Below the pieces are notes generated by a model. The model saw only the letters and a list, made by a program, of their open reading frames with translations, had not been told where the DNA came from and ran no database searches. The position numbers were made by a program, and so were the translations under genes. Positions 47,708 through 64,000 of a stretch of DNA of 64,000 bases are shown here, piece by piece (the first letter of the stretch is position 1; the number at the start of each line of letters is the position of its first letter). The stretch covers positions 248,001 to 312,000 of the forward strand of contig JAFQTT010000003.1 in NCBI GenBank assembly GCA_017408885.1, given 5' to 3'. Origin of the DNA: Methanocorpusculum sp. (lineage in GTDB: Archaea; Halobacteriota; Methanomicrobia; Methanomicrobiales; Methanocorpusculaceae).

Positions 47708-48778
47708 TCACAGCATTTCAGAAACAAGCTCACCCATCTTCGAGCAGGACACACGTGTGCAGCCCTCCTGCATGATATCTCCTGTGCGGTAACCTGCATT
47801 CAAAACAGCAGAAACTGCCGTTTCCACTGCATCAGCCTCCGTCCCCATACCAAATGAATAGCGAAGCATCATAGATGCAGACAGAATTGTACCAAGCGGA
47901 TTTGCGATATCCTGTCCTGCAATATCAGGTGCCGAGCCGTGAATCGGTTCATACATACCCGGACCATCCGCAGAGAGAGAAGCAGAAGGCATCATACCTA
48001 TAGAGCCTGTAAGCATAGATGCTTCATCAGACAGGATATCCCCAAACATATTCTCAGTCACGATAACATCGAACTGCGCAGGATTTCTGATTAACTGCAT
48101 CGCACAGTTATCCACCAGAATGTCCGTGTACGAAACATCCGGATACTCCGCTGCCAGGCGGTGCATCACCTCGCGCCAGAGACGTGATGTGTCGAGTACA
48201 TTTGCTTTGTCAACAGAAGCGAGCCTGCGGTTTCTTCTCCGTGCCGTTTCAAAAGCGACGCGTCCAATTCTCTCAATCTCATGCTCCGAGTACTCCATTA
48301 CATCTGATGCAACCAGTTCGCCATCTCTTTCCACAGTACTCCTTTTGCCAAAGTAGATTCCACCAGTGAGTTCTCTGACAATCATCAGATCAATACCGCA
48401 CCCAATAACCTCAGGCTTCAGAGGAGATGCAGATGCAAGCTCTTGGAACAGCTTTGTAGGTCTCAGGTTTGCAAACAGCCCAAGTTCCTTTCGAACTGCC
48501 AGAAGTGCCTTTTCCGGACGGATATCTGCCGGACATAAATCCCACTTAGGCCCACCAACTGCTCCGAGAAGAACCGCATCTGCGGCTTTGCAGCGCCCCA
48601 TATTCTCATCTGTGATTGGCACACCGTACTTGTCAATCGAACAGCCCCCGATATCAATGTGCTCGTACGAAAAAGTATGACCGAACTTTTCGGCGACAGC
48701 ATCTAAAACACGAACAGCTTCAGATGTGACCTCAGGACCTATTCCATCTCCTGCAAGAATGCAAATTCTCTTCTCCAT
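47708..48778 (-). CDS. leuB: 3-isopropylmalate dehydrogenase
   Basis: 356 aa from [21 protein letters not shown], preceded by GGAGGTGAG within the end of leuD. Catalytic/NAD features: [11 protein letters not shown], the [15 protein letters not shown] lysine, [30 protein letters not shown] and GSAPDIAG. The sequence is close to bacterial LeuB rather than the archaeal isocitrate/homoisocitrate-like type. Last gene of leuA-leuC-leuD-leuB. Confidence 0.95.
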
Positions 48779-48779
48779 C

Positions 48780-49268
48780 TTACTCACCTCCGGAAATTGC
48801 ATTTAAGAGACCGCCTTTTTCGATAATCTCCTGAATGAACGGCGGAAAAGGTTTGGCACAGTATATCTCGCCTTTTGTGTGGTTGATGATGCTTCCGTCA
48901 TCAAAATCCACTTCAACAACATCACCTGCATCAATGTGAGCAACCGCATCTTCTGATTCCAAAATAGCCAGACCGATGTTAATCGCATTGCGGTAGAAAA
49001 TTCTGGCAAAGGTCTTTGCGATGACGACCGAAACCCCGGATGCCTTAATCGAAATCGGCGCATGTTCGCGTGACGAGCCGCATCCAAAGTTTGCTCCGGC
49101 GACAATAATGTCCCCTTCATTCACGCGGGAAGCAAAGCCTGCATCAATATCCTCCATACAGTGAGAAGCAAGCTCAGCGTGGTCTGCCGTGTTCAGATAC
49201 CGTGCAGGGATGATGACATCTGTATCAACATTATCACCAAATTTGTGTACTCTTCCTTTTGCCTTCAT
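48780..49268 (-). CDS. leuD: 3-isopropylmalate dehydratase small subunit
   Basis: 162 aa. [19 protein letters not shown], the swivel-domain motif [16 protein letters not shown] and [14 protein letters not shown]. Completes the aconitase-type active site with LeuC. Overlaps leuC by four bases; one base from leuB. Confidence 0.96.
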
Positions 49269-50530
49269 TCCATAACCTCCCTTGGATCACATATGTGTCC
49301 TTTCACCGCGGAGACTGCGGCGGTCTCCGGACTGCTTAAGTAAACTTTCGAGGTCACATGCCCCATGCGCCCTACAAAATTTCTGTTCGTTGTCGCGACT
49401 GCAACCTCGTCAGCGGCTAAGATTCCCATGTGGCCGCCAAGACACGGGCCGCAGGTCGGAGTTGAAACAACGCACCCTGCATCGATGAAAATCTCAATGT
49501 ATCCGCGCTTTGCACATTCCTTGTAAATCTCCTGCGTTGCAGGGATGATGATACATCTGACGCCTTTTGCAACATGCCGTCCCGCAAAGATTTTTGCCGC
49601 GACTTCCATATCGGAAAGGCGGCCGTTGGTACACGAACCAATCACGCACTGATCGATTTTAACCTCAGTAAGCTCTGAGGCTGGATGAGTATTCTCCGGC
49701 AGGTGAGGACAGGCAACGGTCGGCACAATTTCTGAGAGGTCTATGTCGATTACCTCATCATACTCCGCATTTTGATCTGCTTCAAAGATACAAGGCTCTC
49801 CTGCCCCGTGCTCTTTGCAGTAGGCAAGAGTTTTCTCGTCAACTTCGAAGATTCCGTTTTTCGCTCCTGCTTCGATTGCCATGTTTGCCATGCAGAGCCG
49901 GTCGTCAACAGATAAGCTGTGCAGCCCAACTCCTCCAAACTCCATCGATTTGTAGAGAGCACCATCGACACCGATTTTTCCAATGATGGAAAGAATAACA
50001 TCCTTGCCGGAGCACCCTGGCTGAAGAGCTCCTTTCAGATTGAAACGAATCGCAGACGGCACTTTGAACCATGCTTCACCCGTGGCCATGCCCGCTGCCA
50101 TATCAGTCGAGCCGACACCTGTTGAAAATGCGCCAAGTGCTCCGTAGGTACAGGTGTGCGAGTCAGCACCAATTACCACATCCCCAGGCTTCACCAGACC
50201 TTTTTCCGGAAGCAGAGCATGTTCGATTCCCATATCTCCTGCGTCAAAGTAGTTGACGATGCCGTGGCATCCGGCAAAGCAGCGGCACTGTTTCGCCTGC
50301 TCTGCTGCTTTGATGTCCTTGTTTGGGACAAAGTGGTCCATGACCATCGAGATTTTTGTTTTGTCGAATACCTCGCAAAATCCTGCTTTCTCAAACTCAT
50401 TGATGGCGACAGGTGATGTGATGTCATTTCCAAGAACCATGTCGAGCTTGACGCGGATGAGGTCTCCCGGCGATACGGACTCGACGCCTGCATGGGCGGC
50501 GAGGATTTTCTGAGTCATTGTCATTGGCAT
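49265..50530 (-). CDS. leuC: 3-isopropylmalate dehydratase large subunit
   Basis: 421 aa. [4Fe-4S] ligands in [11 protein letters not shown] and the [17 protein letters not shown] segment; [21 protein letters not shown]. Length matches the archaeal-type LeuC. The start ATG follows the leuA stop directly (TAAATG), and Met3 and Met5 are alternatives. Confidence 0.96.
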
Positions 50531-52192
50531 TTATTCTCTCTCCATAGAGCGGTTCACCGCTGAGAACAGCGCGTTAATCGAAGATACGATGATATCATCG
50601 TGGATTCCAACACCCCAGACCGTGCCTTTTTGGGTGTTGATACTGACATAGGTAATGGCTTTAGAAGAAGAACCGCGGGATATTGCATGCTCTTCATAGG
50701 TAAGATTCGAGAACTCGATTCCAAGATATTTTTTCACCGCGTTTGCGACAGCATCGAGACGACCGTTTCCGCAGGACTTCAGTTCATGAGATACTCCGTC
50801 TGCTTCGAGCGTGAGCGATGCACAGATTCCGGTCTTCTTTTCGAAGTGATAATCGGTGAGCCGGACATGTGTCTCGATGTTGACATAGGTATCGGTAAAG
50901 GCGGCGAGGACTTCTGCCGGTGTGAGTTCTGCGTGTGCATGGTCAGAGATGTTCTTTACAAGATATCCCACCTCCTCACGCATTTTTGCCGGCAGAACAT
51001 ATCCGAAGTTGTGTTCCAAGAGATATCCTATTCCGCCTTTCCCGGACTGAGAGTTGATGCGGATGACATCAGTTTCATACTCGCGGCCAACATCTGCCGG
51101 GTCGATTGGAAGGTAGGGAACAGTCCATGTTATGCAGTTTTTCTCTTCGCGCCAGTGCATGCCTTTGGCAATCGCATCCTGATGCGAGCCGGAGAATGCT
51201 GCAAATACTAATGCCCCTGCATAAGGCTGACGATCTGGAACATGCATGCGGGTTACTCTCTCATAGACTTCTACAATTTTCGGCATCTCTGCAAAGTCAA
51301 GCCCAGGATCCACACCCTGCGCATACATGTTCAATGCAAGAGTTACGAGATCGGTGTTTCCGGTCCGTTCTCCGTTTCCAAAGAGTGTTCCTTCGATGCG
51401 GTCTGCACCTGCCAAAATCCCGAGCTCGGCATCAGCAACAGCACAGCCTCTGTCGTTGTGCGGATGAAGGGAGACAACGACCTCTTCGCGGTATTTGAGG
51501 TTGTCGCACATGAACTCGACCTGATCTGCATAGACATGAGGGCTTGAGAGCTCGACTGTTACCGGCAGGTTGATGATTGCTTTTCTGTCCGGCGTAGGCT
51601 TCCAGATATCAAGGACAGCGTTACAAACAGAAAGAGCGAACTCTGGTTCTGTTCCGGTGAATGATTCAGGTGAGTACTCAAAGCGGTATGGAGCTCCGGT
51701 TTCTTCGGCGATTTTTTTGCAGAGTACGGCTCCTTCAACTGCGATTTTGGTAATCTCTTCTTTGGATTTTCTAAACACCTGTTCTCTTTGTGCAACGGAT
51801 GTTGAGTTATAGAGGTGAACGACTGCATTTTTGCAGCCTTCAAGTGCCTTGAAGGTTTTTCTGATGATGTGCTCTCTGCTTTGGGTTAAAACCTGTACAG
51901 TGACATCGTCTGGTATCATGTCCTGTTCGATTAAGGTCCGAAGGAAGGTGTATTCAGTCTCAGACGCGGCAGGGAAACCAACTTCGATTTCTTTGAAGCC
52001 AATGTCTACTAAGAGCTTGAAGAACTCGAGTTTTTCTTCGAGGCTCATTGGGATGATTAAGGACTGATTTCCGTCTCTTAAGTCAACTGAGCACCAGACA
52101 GGGGGCTGTTCTATTCTGCTTTTCTCAACCCATTTACGGGCGGGGTTCTTTACTGTAAAGAACTGTGTTGTGTATTTTTCTGCGTTGTGCAT
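50531..52192 (-). CDS. leuA: 2-isopropylmalate synthase, type 2 LeuA
   Basis: 553 aa. Condenses acetyl-CoA with 2-ketoisovalerate. Starts MHNAEKYTTQFFTVKNPARKW, then PPVWCSVDLRDGNQSLIIPMSLEEK, EVGFPAAS, SLHPHNDRGCAVA and EGTLFGNGERTGNTDLV. The C-terminal regulatory domain (about 430-553) binds leucine. The N-terminal arrangement is that of the actinobacterial/fungal type 2 enzyme, not the shorter archaeal LeuA/CimA, suggesting bacterial origin. Preceded by a leader ORF at 52278-52376. Confidence 0.95.
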   Translation of the reverse strand: MHNAEKYTTQFFTVKNPARKWVEKSRIEQPPVWCSVDLRDGNQSLIIPMSLEEKLEFFKLLVDIGFKEIEVGFPAASETEYTFLRTLIEQDMIPDDVTVQVLTQSREHIIRKTFKALEGCKNAVVHLYNSTSVAQREQVFRKSKEEITKIAVEGAVLCKKIAEETGAPYRFEYSPESFTGTEPEFALSVCNAVLDIWKPTPDRKAIINLPVTVELSSPHVYADQVEFMCDNLKYREEVVVSLHPHNDRGCAVADAELGILAGADRIEGTLFGNGERTGNTDLVTLALNMYAQGVDPGLDFAEMPKIVEVYERVTRMHVPDRQPYAGALVFAAFSGSHQDAIAKGMHWREEKNCITWTVPYLPIDPADVGREYETDVIRINSQSGKGGIGYLLEHNFGYVLPAKMREEVGYLVKNISDHAHAELTPAEVLAAFTDTYVNIETHVRLTDYHFEKKTGICASLTLEADGVSHELKSCGNGRLDAVANAVKKYLGIEFSNLTYEEHAISRGSSSKAITYVSINTQKGTVWGVGIHDDIIVSSINALFSAVNRSMERE

Positions 52193-52277: not shown

Positions 52278-52376
52278 TTATGCACGTAGTGCGGATAGGA
52301 AAAGAGCTGCGGCAGATAGGGTTGCCTGGGTGGAAGAGTATTTCGATGCGGTACAGGGTTTGGTGTGTGTTTGCAT
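52278..52376 (-). CDS. leuA leader peptide, 32 aa
   Basis: ATG at 52376 behind CGAGGTGAAG, TAA at 52278-52280. The peptide begins MQTHTKPCTASKYSSTQATL and ends LSAAALFLSALRA. It matches the ilvB leader peptide over residues 1-26 (pattern ASKxSSTQAxLSAAxLF). Leu codons at positions 20, 27 and 30 are all CTA; position 25 is CTT. Leu codons near the end of a short ORF before a leucine operon are the hallmark of ribosome-mediated attenuation. TATA-like ATAAATAA (minus TTATTTAT) at 52428-52435. Confidence 0.75.
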   Translation of the reverse strand: MQTHTKPCTASKYSSTQATLSAAALFLSALRA

Positions 52377-52481
52377 TGGTTTCTTCACCTCGGCGTATGT
52401 GTGTTAACATATGTCATACTTGTAAGGATAAATAAGTATGGGTAAGCTATCTGTCACTCGGCTGAAAATGAGGGTAAACCC

Positions 52482-52856
52482 TCACAAAACCTCCGCCACT
52501 GCTTCCACTTCCACCAAAGCCCCACGCGGCAAATCTTTTACTGCAACACAGCTTCGTGCAGGCTTATTCGGCATAAACTCCGCATACACCGCATTAAATG
52601 CGGCAAAGTCCGCCATATCCGAAAGGAAACACGTTGTCTTGACAACCGTCTCCGGCGATGCCCCGGCAGCCTCGAGTACCGCACAGAGATTTTCCATAAC
52701 CTGCCGTGTCTGGGTGGTGATATCCGCCCCCACAATCTCTCCTGTCTCCGGGGAAAGGGCAATCTGTCCGGAGGTAAAGCAGAGTCCGCCGGATACAACT
52801 GCCTGCGAATAGGGGCCGAGTGCTGCCGGTGCCCAGTCGGTATGTATCTGCTTCAT
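52482..52856 (-). CDS. ridA: RidA family enamine/imine deaminase
   Basis: 124 aa. YjgF/RidA core: PAALGPYSQAVVSGGLCFTSGQIALSPETGEIVG, VKTTCFLSDMADFAAFN and RSCVAVKDLPRGALVEVEAVA, with the conserved Arg. Hydrolyses the reactive 2-aminocrotonate released by threonine dehydratase, fitting its four-base overlap with ilvA. Last gene of the ilv operon. Confidence 0.96.
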   Translation of the reverse strand: MKQIHTDWAPAALGPYSQAVVSGGLCFTSGQIALSPETGEIVGADITTQTRQVMENLCAVLEAAGASPETVVKTTCFLSDMADFAAFNAVYAEFMPNKPARSCVAVKDLPRGALVEVEAVAEVL

Positions 52857-54070
52857 GGTTCCCGCTCCAGAAGCTTAAAGCCCGCACCGCACAGCGCATC
52901 TTTAATGGCTTTGATATGGTCGAAGTTTCTCGTCTCCAGCGTCAGGCGCAGATAGCATCCGTTCACATCCGCTCCTTCGCAGGTGTGTTCATGGAACACT
53001 GCTGTTACATTGCCGCCTTCGCGGGCGATAATCTCAGATACCTGCATGAGCTGTCCCGGCTTGTCCACGAGTTCGATTAAGAGCTGACAGCTTCGTCCGG
53101 ACATCAGCAGACCGCGGGCAATGACGCGGGAGAGGATGGTCACATCAATGTTTCCTCCGGAGAGAAGACAGACTGCCTTCTTTCCCGCAAGATCCACTTT
53201 GCCAAACATCGCAGCGGCCACCGCAACCGCTCCGGCTCCTTCGGTTACCAGTTTGTGCCGCTCCATCAGCGCCAGAATCGCCGCAGAGATTTCATCGTCG
53301 GTGACCGTTACAATCTCATCCACGTACCGCGAGCACAGCTCATAGGTAAGCGATCCTGGCTGTTTTACCGCGATACCGTCTGCGATAGTAAATACCGAGT
53401 CGAGCGCTTCGATGTGCGAATCATGAATCGAGTTCAGCATGGAGGGAGCGCCTGATGCCTGCACGCCGTAGACTTTGACATTCGGATTCAGCGCTTTCAG
53501 AGTAAAAGCGATGCCGGAGATTAATCCGCCGCCGCCGATCGGCACTAAGACCGCGTCTAAATCCGGTACCTGCTCTATGAGTTCGAGGGCGATTGTTCCC
53601 TGGCCGGCAATCACATCCGCATCATCAAACGGGTGGATGAATGTATATCCAAACTCGTTTTGCAGTTCCAGCGCCTTCTGATATGCATCATCATAGACGC
53701 CGTCGACCAGACAAATCTCCGCCCCGTAGCTTCGCGTTGCTTCAACTTTGGAAATCGGCGCACCGTTCGGCAGACAGATTACTGCCCGGATGCCGTTTTT
53801 CTGTGCGGCAAGGGCAACCCCCTGGGCATGGTTTCCGGCAGAGCAGGCGATAACGCCTTTTGCCTTCTCCTCTGCCGAGAGCTGCGACATCTTATAGCAT
53901 GCCCCGCGGACCTTGAAGGAACCTGTTACCTGCAGGTTCTCGGTTTTCAGATACAGTTCGAGCCCCGGCGCAAGTTTCGGGGCATAGAGTACGTCAGTTT
54001 TCCGCACCACATCGCGGAGGACGTAGCTTGCTTTATAGACACTGTCCAATGTGAGTTCTTTTTCCGTCAT
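52853..54070 (-). CDS. ilvA: Threonine ammonia-lyase
   Basis: 405 aa. PLP lysine in TGSFKVRGACYKM, SAGNHAQGVALAAQ, phosphate loop VPIGGGGLISGIA and LLSGGNIDVTIL. The C-terminal ACT domain (about 325-400) suggests isoleucine or valine feedback. Makes 2-oxobutyrate for isoleucine. Placed in the ilv operon before ridA. Confidence 0.95.
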   Translation of the reverse strand: MTEKELTLDSVYKASYVLRDVVRKTDVLYAPKLAPGLELYLKTENLQVTGSFKVRGACYKMSQLSAEEKAKGVIACSAGNHAQGVALAAQKNGIRAVICLPNGAPISKVEATRSYGAEICLVDGVYDDAYQKALELQNEFGYTFIHPFDDADVIAGQGTIALELIEQVPDLDAVLVPIGGGGLISGIAFTLKALNPNVKVYGVQASGAPSMLNSIHDSHIEALDSVFTIADGIAVKQPGSLTYELCSRYVDEIVTVTDDEISAAILALMERHKLVTEGAGAVAVAAAMFGKVDLAGKKAVCLLSGGNIDVTILSRVIARGLLMSGRSCQLLIELVDKPGQLMQVSEIIAREGGNVTAVFHEHTCEGADVNGCYLRLTLETRNFDHIKAIKDALCGAGFKLLEREP

Positions 54071-54080
54071 AGTTTCCCTC

Positions 54081-55751
54081 TCAGCCGCGGAACTGGTTGA
54101 TGACTGCTCCGCGGTCCGCAGAACTTACCTGCTCTGCATACCGTGCCAGACAGCCGGTAAGGCCGGTCTTCTTTTTGATTTCCATTGTTTCTTTGCGTGC
54201 TGCTATCTCTTCGTCTGATACATCAAGCGATATCGAGTACTCCGGGATGTTGATGGAGATTCTATCCCCGTCTTTGACATAGGCAATCAGCCCGCCGCGG
54301 ACTGCCTCCGGTGAGACATGTCCAATAGATGCCCCGCGGGTAGCACCGGAGAAGCGTCCGTCAGTGATTAACGCCACATCGCGGTCCAGTCCCATGCCGG
54401 CGATAGCAGATGTCGGAGACAGCATCTCCCGCATGCCTGGTCCTCCGGCAGGACCTTCATAGCGGATGACCACCACATCGCCTTTTTTAATCTCTCCTGC
54501 GTAAATTGCCGATATTGCCTCCTCTTCGGAGTCAAATACCCGGGCAGGACCTGCGTGCACCAGCATCTCCTCTGCAACCGCACTTCTCTTGACCACACAG
54601 CCGTCCGGTGCTAAGTTTCCGCGAAGAACCGCGATACCTCCTGTTTTGCTGTACGGATTGTCTGCAGGGCGGATGACCTCCGGGTTTTTGTTCTTTGCCT
54701 GTGCGATGTTTTCGCCTATGGTCTTTCCAGTGCAGGTTAGAGCCGAGAGATCGAGAAGTCCTATCCGGTTAAGTTCAGAAAGCACCGCATAAACTCCGCC
54801 TGCCTCGTCCAAGTCTTCCATGTAGGTGTTTCCGGCAGGAGCCAAGTGGCAGAGGTTCGGCGTTTTCTCACTGATTTCGTTTGCCATGTCAAGGTTCAGA
54901 GTAATACCGCACTCGTTGGCGATTGCCGGCAGGTGGAGCATACTGTTCGTGGAACATCCAAGCGCCATGTCTGCAGTGAGTGCATTTCTGAATGCCGCCT
55001 CGGTCATAATATCACGCGGACGGATGTTTTTCCGGACAAGATCCATTACCTGCATGCCCGCATGTTTGGCAAGCGCGATTCTGGCGGAATAGACCGCCGG
55101 AATCGTGCCGTTGCCGGAAAGTCCCATGCCGAGCACCTCAGTTAAGCAGTTCATCGAGTTTGCCGTGTACATGCCGGAGCACGAACCGCAGGTAGGACAC
55201 GTCTTCTGCTCGCAGACGGCAAGCTCTTCTTCGGTGATTTTTCCAGCGGTATAGGCGCCGACTGCTTCAAACATGCTGGAAAGACTCGTCTTTTTCCCGT
55301 TCAGCTTTCCGGCAAGCATGGGACCTCCGGAAACAAAGATTGTCGGGATGTTGAGACGGGCGGCTGCCATCAGCAGTCCCGGGACATTTTTGTCGCAGTT
55401 TGGGACCATGACAAGACCGTCAAAGCCGTGAGCTCGGACCATTGCCTCGGTGGAATCGGCGATGATGTCGCGGGTAATCAGCGAGTACTTCATGCCGGTA
55501 TGTCCCATGGCGATGCCGTCACAGACCGCAATCGCCGGGAACATAATCGGGGTTCCTCCGGCCATGGCAACACCGAGCTTTACAGCCTCGACAATCTTGT
55601 CGAGGTTCATGTGTCCCGGTACAATCTCATTGTGTGAACTGACGATACCGATTATTGGCCGCGAAAGCTCCTCTCCGGTCAGACCTAACGCGTGGTACAG
55701 ACTTCTGTGCGGAGCATTGGCAAATCCGTCAACGATAGTATCCTGTATCAT
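54081..55751 (-). CDS. ilvD: Dihydroxy-acid dehydratase
   Basis: 556 aa from [23 protein letters not shown], which begins two bases after the ilvC stop; 12 earlier codons lie inside ilvC. Iron-sulfur Cys in [12 protein letters not shown] and [24 protein letters not shown]-type [18 protein letters not shown]. Converts dihydroxy acids to 2-keto acids for valine, leucine and isoleucine. Confidence 0.96.
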
Positions 55752-55753
55752 GA

Positions 55754-57275
<1,522 letters not shown>

Positions 57276-57279
<4 letters not shown>

Positions 57280-58982
57280 GCGGCTTCCTCCTTTGCGGTG
57301 ATGATATCGTCGATTGAGCCTCCTGGCGGAAGCATCGGGAGGACAAATTCATCTTTGTCGATTACGGTGTCGATGACAAACGGGCCTTCGTGAGAAAGGG
57401 CCGCAGACAGTGCGGCACGGAGTTCTTCTTCGGTGGTGACGCGGACCGCTTTTGCGCCGAATGCTTCGGCAAGTTTGACGAAGTCGGTTTTGCGGTTGAG
57501 CAGAGTGTGCGAGTATCGTTTTCCGTAGAAGAGCGTCTGCCACTGGCGAACCATGCCGAGGACGCCGTTGTTGAGGAGGACAACGGTTACCGGCAGATTG
57601 TACGAGACAGCGGTTGCCATTTCGTTTAAGTTCATGCCGAAACTGCCGTCTCCTGTGACAAGGATGCTTCTGCCTCCTGTTCCAACAGCCGAACCAACAG
57701 CAGCCCCAAGCCCGAATCCCATCGTACCGAGCCCGCCGCTTGAGGCAAACGTCCGCGGACGTTCAAAGGCGGCGTACTGTGCGGTCCACATCTGATGCTG
57801 TCCGACATCTGTTGCGATTACGATATCCGGGGTTTTTGCGGCGTTGATACAGTCGAAGATCTTCTTCGGCGTCAGAGCATCGCCTGCGGCAGCTTCGGCG
57901 GCGTCTAAGATGCGGCGTCCTTCTTCTTTGAGGGATGCAACTTTTGCCGTCCATGCCGGATGAGATGCAGATGCGCACTGTTCCAGGATGCGGGAAACCG
58001 TTGATGTGATGTCTCCGGAGATTCCGCAGTCGACATGGATGTTTTTGCCGATTTCCGCAAAGTCTGCGTCGATATGGATGACTTTTGCGCCGCTGGCGTA
58101 CTTTTCGGCGTTTCCGGTTGCCCGGTCGCTGAAGCGAACCCCGATACCAATGACAAGGTCTGCTTCTTTGTTTGCCATCGAAGATGCATAGGTTCCGTGC
58201 ATGCCCTGCATGCCAAGGAACCGCGGCGAGTGTCCAAGCCCTGCGGTAAGGCCCATGAAGGTACATCCGATGCAGGCGTCGATTTTGTCAGCGAGTGCTA
58301 AAACGTCCTCCGCGGCGCCGGATGCAGCAGCCCCTCCGCCGATGTAGAGGTATGGGCGTTCTGCGGCATTGATGAGCGAGACGGCTTTTTCTATCAGAGA
58401 TTCGTCTGCTTTCTTCTGCGGAAATGCTTCAACAACTCCGCATGGCTCAAAGAGGCATTCAGCTGTCTGGACGTCCTTTGGGATGTCAATGAGCACAGGT
58501 CCGGGTCTTCCAGACTTGGCGATTTGGAAAGCTTCGCGGATGGTGTCTGCGAGGTCTTCGACATCTGATACGAAGTAGTTGTGCTTCGTAATCGGCATGG
58601 TAACCCCTGTGATGTTGATTTCCTGAAAGCTGTCCTTTCCAATCTGAGAAGATGCGACGTTTCCGGTGATTGCGATTAAAGGGATGGAGTCAAGCATGGC
58701 TGTCGCGATTCCTGTGACGAGGTTGGTTGCACCCGGTCCAGAGGTCGCGATGACTACGCCGACTTTTCCGGTTGCCCGGGCGTAGCCGTCGGCTGCGTGT
58801 GATGCACCCTGTTCATGTGCTGTCAGCACATGGGATAGCCGGTCGCTGGCGTTGTAGAGTGCATCATAGATGGTCAATACCTGACCTCCGGGATAGCCGA
58901 AGACATCGGTAACTCCCTGTTCTATGAGAGTCTCAACGACGATTTCTGCGCCGTTCATCTTTTTGCAAGTGGTCGTTGTCAT
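57276..58982 (-). CDS. ilvB: Acetolactate synthase large subunit
   Basis: 568 aa from MTTTTCKKMNGAEIVVETL. ThDP enzyme: catalytic Glu in LTAHEQGASHAADGYARATG, FAD/central domain IDIPKDVQTA, and the ThDP motif VTGDGSFGMNLNEMATAVSYNLPVTVVLLNN. First structural gene of ilvB-N-C-D-A-ridA. Twenty-four further open codons upstream belong to the leader. Preceded by a 38-residue isoleucine-rich leader peptide. Confidence 0.96.
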
Positions 58983-59054: not shown

Positions 59055-59135
59055 TCAGTACAATTGGTGAAGATATCCCGACAGGAATTTCTGAAACAAC
59101 CCCGTCCTTCTCGAACAGACTTCTGCATTGTGCAT
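59055..59135 (-). other. Relict of the leuA start region inside the ilvB leader
   Basis: Positions 59121-59141 match 20 of 21 bases of the leuA start region (52178-52198), including the ATG and the codons for MHNAE. Here the frame continues as an unrelated 26-codon ORF ending at 59055. It shows that the ilvB leader and the leuA leader share descent through to the first leuA codons. A hairpin TGCAT-a-CTCT / AGAG-c-ATGCA (59132-59155) forms over the relict start. Confidence 0.6.
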
Positions 59136-59192
59136 GCTCTTAACAGAGAGTATGCAGGAACGTTCGTTTAACGGATAAAGTCGGGTTTAATT

Positions 59193-59204
59193 GACGAATA
59201 CGTC
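59193..59204 (-). promoter_or_regulatory. Hairpin after the ilvB leader ORF
   Basis: GACG-TATT-CGTC, 13 bases after the leader stop, identical in core to the hairpin after the leuA leader ORF. Flanking AATT on both sides can extend it with a two-base bulge. No long U tract follows, so it is not a classical terminator by itself. Confidence 0.5.
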
Positions 59205-59217
59205 TGAATTTTCAGCT

Positions 59218-59334
59218 TTATGCAATAATGGCAATAATGCTAATAATACTAATAATGAAAAGAGATGCGGCAGATAGGCGTGCCTGAGTAGAGGATGATT
59301 TCGATGCGGGTGTTGTTTGCGTTGTTCTTTGCAT
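59218..59334 (-). CDS. ilvB leader peptide, 38 aa, isoleucine-rich
   Basis: ATG at 59334 behind CGAGGTGAAGAAACC, TAA at 59218-59220. Residues 1-26 (MQRTTQTTPASKSSSTQ then ARLSAASLF) match the leuA leader peptide. Residues 27-38 are IISIISIIAIIA. All eight Ile codons are ATT. It is placed directly upstream of an isoleucine/valine operon that includes ilvA. The composition, the strong ribosome site and the paralogous leuA leader make translation very likely. Sensing of charged tRNA-Ile by ribosome stalling is the natural inference. Confidence 0.82.
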   Translation of the reverse strand: MQRTTQTTPASKSSSTQARLSAASLFIISIISIIAIIA

Positions 59335-59361
59335 GTGGTTTCTTCACCTCGTAGTATGTAT

Positions 59362-59396
59362 GTCAGATTATATCTGACCTGATATAATAAAAAGGT
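59362..59396 (-). promoter_or_regulatory. ilv operon promoter and operator-like dyad
   Basis: TTATTATATC (minus strand, 59381-59390) is a good TATA box. Directly downstream lies the perfect dyad GTCAGAT-TAT-ATCTGAC (59362-59378), between the TATA box and the expected start site (about 59358). A repressor there would block initiation. The leuA promoter lacks this dyad. Confidence 0.6.
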
Positions 59397-62675: not shown

Positions 62676-63275
62676 TTATTTGCGGCAGACAATCGCCGCG
62701 TGGTCGATGTGATACGGATTAAGCCACAGGCTCTTTTCGATTGTAAGACCGGCTGCTTCAAGCTCTGCGCAGCTTTCCGCAAAGACCTCTTCTGGAGTTT
62801 TTCTGATGTCGACAGAACGTGTCTTAAGCATCAGAATAAGCCTGCCTCCTTTTTTCAGGAATGGAATGTGGCGGACTGCAATTCCTGCCTGATTGGGCTG
62901 AGCCACATCCATGTACACCATGTCAGCAGGCTCTAAAAGGGCTGCATACTCTCTTGGTCTTGTGGCATCTCCATAGATTGGGATGATGTTTTTACGTCTT
63001 GCAGAAACAGCCAGTAAATCCTGCATCGGGCGCGGAGCGAACTCGACAGCATAGACGCACTCGGTGTAGTCTGCAACGTGCGAGACTGTCGTACCGTTGG
63101 CCGCTCCTAAGTAGAGCACAACCTCATCTTTTTTCAGGTCTGTTGTCTTGTCAAGATACCAGAGTGCAGAAAGTTTGCTTCTGTACGGATCCCAAACGCG
63201 GCATCCTTCAAGCATTCTTTCTCCATAGACGCCGCCTGCACCTTCAGACACCAGAGTTCCCCGAATGTCCTTCAT
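62676..63275 (-). CDS. flpA: Fibrillarin-like 2'-O-methyltransferase
   Basis: 199 aa. VYGERMLEGCRVWDPYRSKLSALW, SAM-binding VLYLGAANGTTVSHVAD, VYAVEFAPRPMQDLL, and the catalytic Asp/Lys region MDVAQPNQAG...LMLKTRSVD. Catalytic subunit of archaeal C/D box RNPs that modify rRNA and tRNA. Overlaps nop5 by four bases. Confidence 0.96.
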   Translation of the reverse strand: MKDIRGTLVSEGAGGVYGERMLEGCRVWDPYRSKLSALWYLDKTTDLKKDEVVLYLGAANGTTVSHVADYTECVYAVEFAPRPMQDLLAVSARRKNIIPIYGDATRPREYAALLEPADMVYMDVAQPNQAGIAVRHIPFLKKGGRLILMLKTRSVDIRKTPEEVFAESCAELEAAGLTIEKSLWLNPYHIDHAAIVCRK

Positions 63276-64000
63276 TTGGAAACCTCCATGAGTTTGTCAA
63301 TCTTTTCGTTTGCATCAGCGAGGAATGCCTCGTCAAGTTCTCCCCGAAACGCATCAAGGCGGGCTGCGATTGCAAGTTTGGAGGCTAAAATTCTCGCAAG
63401 CTTTCCTCTTACATCACGCGGGGCGTTGTGAACTCTTCTGTGCTGAAAAATCAGACCGTGTTTTGGGGAAGGAGTGCCTGCTCTGATATGGGAGAATAAC
63501 GCAGACTCAGCTCCAAGAACCTGAATCGAAGAAGCGGCCATTCTGGAAATTATGGAAAGACCGCCTGCTCTAGACATTAACCGTGCGGCAACCAGCCCTC
63601 CGACTAAGGCACTCATATTCGGGATTACCTCATCTGCTTTGCGTGAGACATCCTTCATGAGCTGGGTTCTAAGATTTGTGAGAGACAAAATCTCGCGGGC
63701 TACATGTTTCATCGAAGGGTTTTTGGATTTTGCAATGGTCTGAATGAACTTCTTCGATGCGGCTTTATTGTATTTTCTGGATGAATCCGGGGTTGTTGAC
63801 TGATGCCATTCAGTAAGCCTCTCTGTTAAAAGATTGATGACCTCATCAAGTTCATCGAGCATACGCACCATCTGCAGAAGGTCTGTGTCCTTTTCAGAAA
63901 GAGAGGCGGCAATTCCTTCTTCAGCCATTGAGGAGGCGACAGCTCTGACAGATGCTATATATTCGGCTCTGGATGATACAAGCCCTGCATCTTTTAGCTC
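63272..64000 (-). CDS. nop5: Nop5/Nop56/58 C/D box RNP core protein (partial, N-terminus beyond window)
   Basis: 243 codons present, open to the right edge. Coiled coil (about 40-110) and the Nop domain ALVGGLVAARLMSRAGGLSIISRMAASSIQVLGAESALF followed by SPKHGLIFQHRRVHNAPRDVRGKLAR, which binds the C/D RNA with L7Ae. Short C-terminus without the eukaryotic KKE tail. Partner of fibrillarin. Confidence 0.96.
   Translation of the reverse strand, partial: ELKDAGLVSSRAEYIASVRAVASSMAEEGIAASLSEKDTDLLQMVRMLDELDEVINLLTERLTEWHQSTTPDSSRKYNKAASKKFIQTIAKSKNPSMKHVAREILSLTNLRTQLMKDVSRKADEVIPNMSALVGGLVAARLMSRAGGLSIISRMAASSIQVLGAESALFSHIRAGTPSPKHGLIFQHRRVHNAPRDVRGKLARILASKLAIAARLDAFRGELDEAFLADANEKIDKLMEVSK

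Follow-up and report, generated by a model that had tools for sequence, protein, structure and literature searches.

Isoleucine- and leucine-codon leader ORFs before the ilv and leu operons of a Methanocorpusculum genome: a candidate for amino-acid-sensing attenuation in an archaeon

In the window, the whole stretch of 64,000 nucleotides analysed here, two short open reading frames (ORFs) with strong Shine-Dalgarno (SD) sequences lie upstream of the ilv and leu operons, one rich in isoleucine codons and its paralogue carrying rare leucine codons. The preferred reading, with a probability of about three in four, is that ribosome-mediated sensing of Ile-tRNA and Leu-tRNA gates the two operons. 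That this would be the first archaeal case of amino-acid-sensing leader-peptide attenuation, in which a bacterial operon had its T-box replaced by a leader that was duplicated and re-aimed through its codons, with competition by FttA or occlusion of the start site as the archaeal output instead of a terminator hairpin, is judged only a little better than an even bet. Attenuation by the ilv leader had been proposed from an earlier, sequence-only reading of this DNA. The translated, Ile-specific ORF of that proposal is well supported, because it is conserved, is absent from the relatives of the gene donors and, above all, has a paralogous leu leader switched to Leu codons; a classical terminator was not found, and the RNA structures around the leaders are conserved only in part.

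The two leaders and their control codons

The window lies within a 363-kb contig of a 13-contig assembly of 1.55 Mb. The organism is probably a host-associated Methanocorpusculum, a methane-making gut archaeon. No archaeal SSU (16S) match was found in the assembly, and its archaeal nature therefore rests on the fibrillarin and Nop genes of the same contig, located 3-5 kb from the ilv leader, on a tRNA set typical of archaea, and on its relatives. Methanocorpusculum is known as a herbivore-gut dweller that holds genes of bacterial origin (PMC10035134). The genes concerned are:

62676..64000, minus strand: fibrillarin and Nop genes, which give this contig an archaeal context
57276..58982, minus strand: ilvB, of foreign (Clostridia) origin, weak SD (-3.8)
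56785..57279, minus strand: ilvN
55754..56842, minus strand: ilvC, start codon uncertain
54081..55787, minus strand: ilvD
52853..54070, minus strand: ilvA, 78% identical to the bacterial genome G061 in the segment compared
52482..52856, minus strand: ridA
50531..52192, minus strand: leuA, first gene of leuACDB, of foreign descent, 81% identical to a Clostridia genome, SD weak (-5.0)
47708..50530, minus strand: leuC, leuD and leuB

The ilv leader and its surroundings consist of the following elements:

59381..59393, minus strand: AT-rich TATA-like stretch, putative ilv leader promoter, aligned by eye with TATATATC / TATTTATC of the other leaders
59364..59380, minus strand: stretch with a palindrome, GTCAGATATAATCTGAC, where transcription is expected to start, a possible operator
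59344..59350, minus strand: SD sequence GAGGTGA (anti-SD duplex -11.8 kcal/mol)
59218..59334, minus strand: ilv leader ORF of 38 codons, MQRTTQTTPASKSSSTQARLSAASLFIISIISIIAIIA, upstream of ilvB
59257..59277, minus strand: codons 20-26, with potential pairing to 59123-59141
59221..59256, minus strand: control region, codons 27-38, with eight Ile ATT codons by count
59193..59204, minus strand: hairpin GACG-TATT-CGTC, 13 nt past the leader stop
59123..59141, minus strand: AAGAGCATGCACAATGCAG, by alignment an apparent relic of the leuA start region within the ilv 5' UTR
59101..59119, minus strand: weak terminator-like hairpin followed by GTTGTTTC, T-poor and not called as a terminator

The sequence-only reading had described the 38-codon ORF with its strong SD, the eight Ile codons that are all ATT, the hairpin 13 bases past the stop (59204-59193) and the downstream operon ilvB-N-C-D-A-ridA, and all of these were recovered; leuACDB behind the ilv genes and the second leader before leuA had both been overlooked. 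With 8 Ile in 12 residues, the ilv leader has the highest Ile content among the 939 short ORFs of the window (the runner-up has 6), and in 20 shuffles of the window the maxima were 5-6, so that 8 was never reached. At the Ile frequency of the genome, the probability of at least eight Ile in 12 given residues is 3e-7. In the 1.55-Mb assembly, 123 short ORFs preceded by an SD lie upstream of genes; the ilv leader ranks first among them in single-residue richness, and no other comparable leader peptide was found in this set. In addition, ATT makes up 43% of the Ile codons genome-wide versus 8/8 in this leader (P 1e-3) and 7/7 in a second version of the ilv leader (P 3e-3). Elsewhere, near position 62881 of contig G000:C12, a short ORF with a very strong SD, MFFFFRCFESRHFLR, about 280 nt upstream of a gene without an assigned role, is a candidate Phe-rich leader or a chance occurrence.

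The second leader comprises three elements:

52402..52419, minus strand: GTATGACATATGTTAACA element, leu leader promoter, occurring free of mismatches in the genus only before these leaders
52385..52391, minus strand: SD sequence GAGGTGA (-11.8 kcal/mol)
52278..52376, minus strand: leu leader ORF of 32 codons, MQTHTKPCTASKYSSTQATLSAAALFLSALRA, with a 78% DNA match to the ilv leader

This leader lies 85 nt upstream of leuA, and 235 nt separate the ilv leader from ilvB. Its Leu enrichment is modest (4 Leu in 13, P 0.02). Three of its four Leu codons are the rare CTA, which accounts for 3.1% of Leu codons genome-wide and is the third-rarest sense codon; this share is improbable by chance (P 1e-4), as is that of the leu leader of G023, another genome of the genus, in which two of four are CTA (P 5e-3). 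The G023 leu leader, MKTQPSAKPAVQTSSSSAAILSAPSLFLALRA, also precedes leuA, and an ilv leader precedes ilvB 3.5 kb further on. The four leaders (ilv and leu, window and G023) have in common a TATA-like box, the SD, a LSAxSLF or LSAxALF motif and the GTATGACATATGNTAACA element, which has diverged in the ilv copy of the window. The leu leaders of both genomes resemble the ilv leaders in promoter, SD and N-terminal half, and past the motif, Ile follows in the ilv copies and Leu in the leu copies. The GACG/CGTC hairpin also follows both leu leaders, with a different loop in G023. Because AAGAGCATGCACAATGCAG in the ilv 5' UTR is almost identical to the leuA start region, AAGAGCATGCACAACGCAG, the alignment suggests the leu leader region as the source of the ilv one by copying.

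For both leaders, palindromic elements are present where transcription is expected to begin (59364-59380 and 52402-52419) and are possible repressor sites. No exact promoter-element sites were found outside the leaders in the genus, and thus no wider regulon.

Conservation within the genus and origin of the operons

A search for the leader in related genomes, suggested as a check by the sequence-only reading, was carried out at the DNA level across 25 genomes of the genus and returned leader-like sequence in three, namely the window genome, G002 and G023, which represent three species, two of them nearly identical in this region. In all three, the leader precedes the same ilvB, and every genome with this ilvB has an ilv leader. 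Relatives lacking an Ile-rich ORF before ilvB had been named as evidence that would count against the proposal; such relatives do exist, but their ilvB differs in ancestry. No leader was found with a second foreign ilvB group of the genus (G004, G005, G018 and G019). The ilvB genes of this group (L004-L007) stand beside Brachyspira and Anaerosphaera in the tree. Since this second species group has an ilvB of another bacterial affinity, the tree indicates that ilvB was replaced at least twice in the genus.

The ilv leader of the window is 90% DNA-identical to that of G002 and G023, with both flanks diverged. Over codons 1-27, the window and G002 differ by the in-frame indel of one codon and by five substitutions, none of which alters the amino acid. 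Because changes in this part are synonymous only, the indel comprises a whole codon and the flanks have diverged, it is well supported by the substitution pattern that the ilv leader is a translated ORF. The amino acid changes I28V, I29T and S30I (G002 numbering) all lie where the Ile run begins, within the control region, and the G002 leader retains seven Ile codons, all ATT. The leu leader was seen in the window and in G023; the leuA start and upstream region of G002 read N (L146, G002:C3).

The order of the genes differs between the species, being leuACDB-ilvBNCDA in G002 and G023. Between the window (52482-57279) and G002 (L146, L145), protein identity is 98-99% for ilvN, C, D and A but only 87% for ilvB and 80% for leuB, and these mosaic identities suggest a recent exchange of ilvNCDA between species.

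It is unlikely that the leaders act as ribosome loading platforms only, with the strong SD keeping the transcript translated or stable and aiding ilvB and leuA by coupling, and with no sensing involved. The SDs of the structural genes are indeed weak (-1.5 to -5.0 kcal/mol versus -11.8 for the leaders), and the N-terminal half is better conserved than the control region, both of which fit such a role. However, gaps of 85 and 235 nt are long for coupling, and the occurrence of Ile before ilv and of rare Leu before leu in otherwise similar leaders would stay unexplained.

The operons themselves have a bacterial affinity. ilvB is 72% identical to that of a Clostridia genome from roe deer rectum versus about 48-55% to other archaeal ilvB, and leuA is 81% identical to the same genome versus 25-29% to other archaeal homologues. 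In a maximum-likelihood tree, the three archaeal ilvB fall inside the Clostridia, beside L031-L033 (support 96/91). These comparisons place the source of the ilv and leu genes in a Clostridia-like bacterium. The gene order ilvB-N-C-D, then ilvA-ridA-leuA, is shared with the relatives. A T-box is located immediately upstream of ilvB in L031 and L032, and G061 has a ridA-leuA gap of about 14 nt with neither leader nor T-box. In the window, the same gap measures 289 nt and holds the promoter and leader. No T-box (RF00230) was detected in the window, L145 or L146, and three tRNAs were the only Rfam RNAs in the window.

The family of G061 (398 genomes) yielded no match to the leader, nor did other archaea in a phylum sample of 394 genomes. 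Two apparent archaeal matches, L189 and L193, were rejected as chance matches, as they lie antisense beside another gene. Import of the leader together with the genes from the donor was also rejected, since none is present in the nearest bacterial relatives or their family. Because these nearest relatives have a T-box or the 14-nt gap instead and the 398 genomes are leaderless, the promoter-leader modules were most likely gained in the archaeal clade after the transfer and copied between the two operons.

More distant bacterial ilvB loci (L045, L051 and L055) have their own leader-like ORFs with intrinsic terminators and no sequence relation to the archaeal ones. Probable Ile/Val-rich ilv leader peptides, unannotated and 75-320 bases upstream of ilvB, were observed in L041, L045, L051, L055 and L106, from Lentisphaerota, Oribacterium, an uncultured bacterium and Brachyspira, several of them followed by a hairpin and a T-run. 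The Ruminococcus contig L047 combines a T-box (650-900, before leuA) with an Ile/Val leader-like ORF before ilvB (upstream of 3001), an apparent coexistence of two sensing types. Within bacteria, a given gene is known to switch between control by a T-box and control by a leader peptide (PMC2965389).

Slightly less probable still than mere loading platforms is that the leaders are passive relics of bacterial attenuators from an unsampled bacterium, with control exerted by a repressor bound to the palindrome close to the start site. The bacterial nature of the operon, the Ile/Val-rich leader-like ORFs with hairpin and T-run before other bacterial ilvB relatives, and the strict association of GTATGACATATGNTAACA with the leader promoters are consistent with this. 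It is opposed by the T-boxes or 14-nt gap of the nearest bacterial relatives, the leaderless 398 genomes of the donor's family, the archaeal copies being without a terminator, and the persisting selection on the ORF. A repressor could act in addition to the leader. Least probable of all, the ORFs would be small functional proteins, for example a membrane peptide, that merely sit before the operons: the ilv peptide has a C-terminal hydrophobic stretch of about 19 residues and the amino acids of its first 27 codons are conserved, but the hydrophobic stretch of the leu peptides is too short for a membrane segment, there is no Pfam match, the peptide ends change with the operon behind them, and the codon choice is unusual.

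The proposed mechanism and its output step

In the preferred reading, that of ribosome-mediated sensing, an archaeal promoter (the TATA-like box) would start the transcript about 25 nt before the leader, and ribosomes would load on the strong leader SD, the sequence of which is plainly present. The Ile codons of the ilv leader would serve as a gauge of charged tRNA-Ile that sets the expression of ilvBNCDA-ridA, and the sister leader with its rare Leu codons would play the same role for leuACDB. When Ile or Leu is plentiful, ribosomes would reach the stop codon and leave, the downstream RNA would fold, and ilvB or leuA with its weak SD would stay low. When Ile or Leu is short, stalling at the ATT or CTA codons would leave ribosomes over codons 20-26 and release the region downstream. 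The arrangement would be suited to start-site control, because codons 20-26 would be masked by a ribosome halted in the control region but not by one at the stop.

The statement of the sequence-only reading that no strong U-tract terminator is seen holds for both copies: no intrinsic U-tract terminator was found, the ilv copy having just the weak T-poor hairpin at 59119-59101 and the leu copy none. In the leu copy of the window, codons 20-26 of the leader can pair with the stretch about the start of leuA, AAAAAGAGCATGCACAACGCAG, and 0 of 500 shuffles were as stable. The homologous pairing in the ilv copies of G002 and G023 was less significant, equalled by 27-31 of 500 shuffles; that of the window ilv copy, between codons 20-26 and 59123-59141, was not significant (215/500), and in G023 the pairing between leu leader and leuA start is absent (414/500). 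A simple folding model of the stalled ribosome, with a blocked footprint, gave no gain in accessibility at the ilvB or leuA start, and opening of these starts by a stalled ribosome is thus unsupported by this model.

For the leu copy, a translational output is more likely, as judged from the predicted pairing. The ilv copy may instead be controlled through continuation of the transcript, with the leading ribosome competing against FttA (aCPSF1), and a Rho-like output is as plausible for this copy, with 235 nt to ilvB. FttA and the ribosome are hypothesised to be competitors on the elongation complex (PMC11616081); because FttA is proposed to police transcription-translation coupling, it could provide such an output.

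Relation to known attenuation systems

In the literature searched, mostly without subscription journals, so that absence is not proof, no archaeal amino-acid leader-peptide attenuator was found, which agrees with the earlier remark that none is established. Small ORFs in 5' UTRs of a methanogen have been reported without a role as amino-acid attenuators (PMC11456600), and uORF regulation in archaea is mentioned in general terms only (PMC10219788). If the proposal is true, ribosomes of archaea are able to sense amino acids in cis, and the two leaders offer a ready system for testing for a response of archaeal FttA or of start-site occlusion to stalled ribosomes. The operons would, moreover, clearly exemplify a gene set that crossed domains and was given a new regulatory device of similar logic replacing the T-box.

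Leader-peptide attenuation is a textbook illustration of how transcription and translation are coupled. Three of its general hallmarks, a short SD-bearing ORF before a biosynthetic operon, matching control codons and conservation together with the operon, are found here at the sequence level. For a further one, mutually exclusive RNA structures switched by the position of the ribosome, the pairing was significant in the leu copy of the window only and the stall model showed no effect; the GC hairpin and U-run of the classical trp/ilv/leu attenuators are not. The enterobacterial attenuators of ilvBN (ivbL), ilvGMEDA (ilvL) and leu (leuL) likewise have a short SD-bearing ORF with control codons for the product and precede the same operons, and leuL of Salmonella uses rare CUA codons, as the archaeal leu leader does. 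The ilvBNC attenuator of Corynebacterium glutamicum (PMC11857589) also has a short ORF with its own SD and control codons. The archaeal leaders differ from these bacterial branched-chain attenuators in their archaeal host, their apparent archaeal promoter, the absence of a GC hairpin and U-run, the use of Ile only in the ilv leader, and the lack of any detectable sequence relation.

The T-box (RF00230), which precedes the same operon in L031 and L032, reads tRNA charging like the proposed leaders, but it binds tRNA directly and without a leader ORF. In translational attenuators of the ermC type, stalling on the leader could expose a downstream start so that no terminator is needed, as proposed here; ermC, however, is induced by a drug and not by a missing amino acid, and start-site sequestration is predicted here for the leu copy of the window only. 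Termination by FttA (PMC11616081) is the candidate for a Rho-like output, and a leader-controlled case of it is not reported in the literature searched. Taken with these likenesses and differences, the leaders of Methanocorpusculum look like a case of leader-peptide attenuation, the logic of which has to date been described for bacteria only, in a new domain of life and without the classical terminator.
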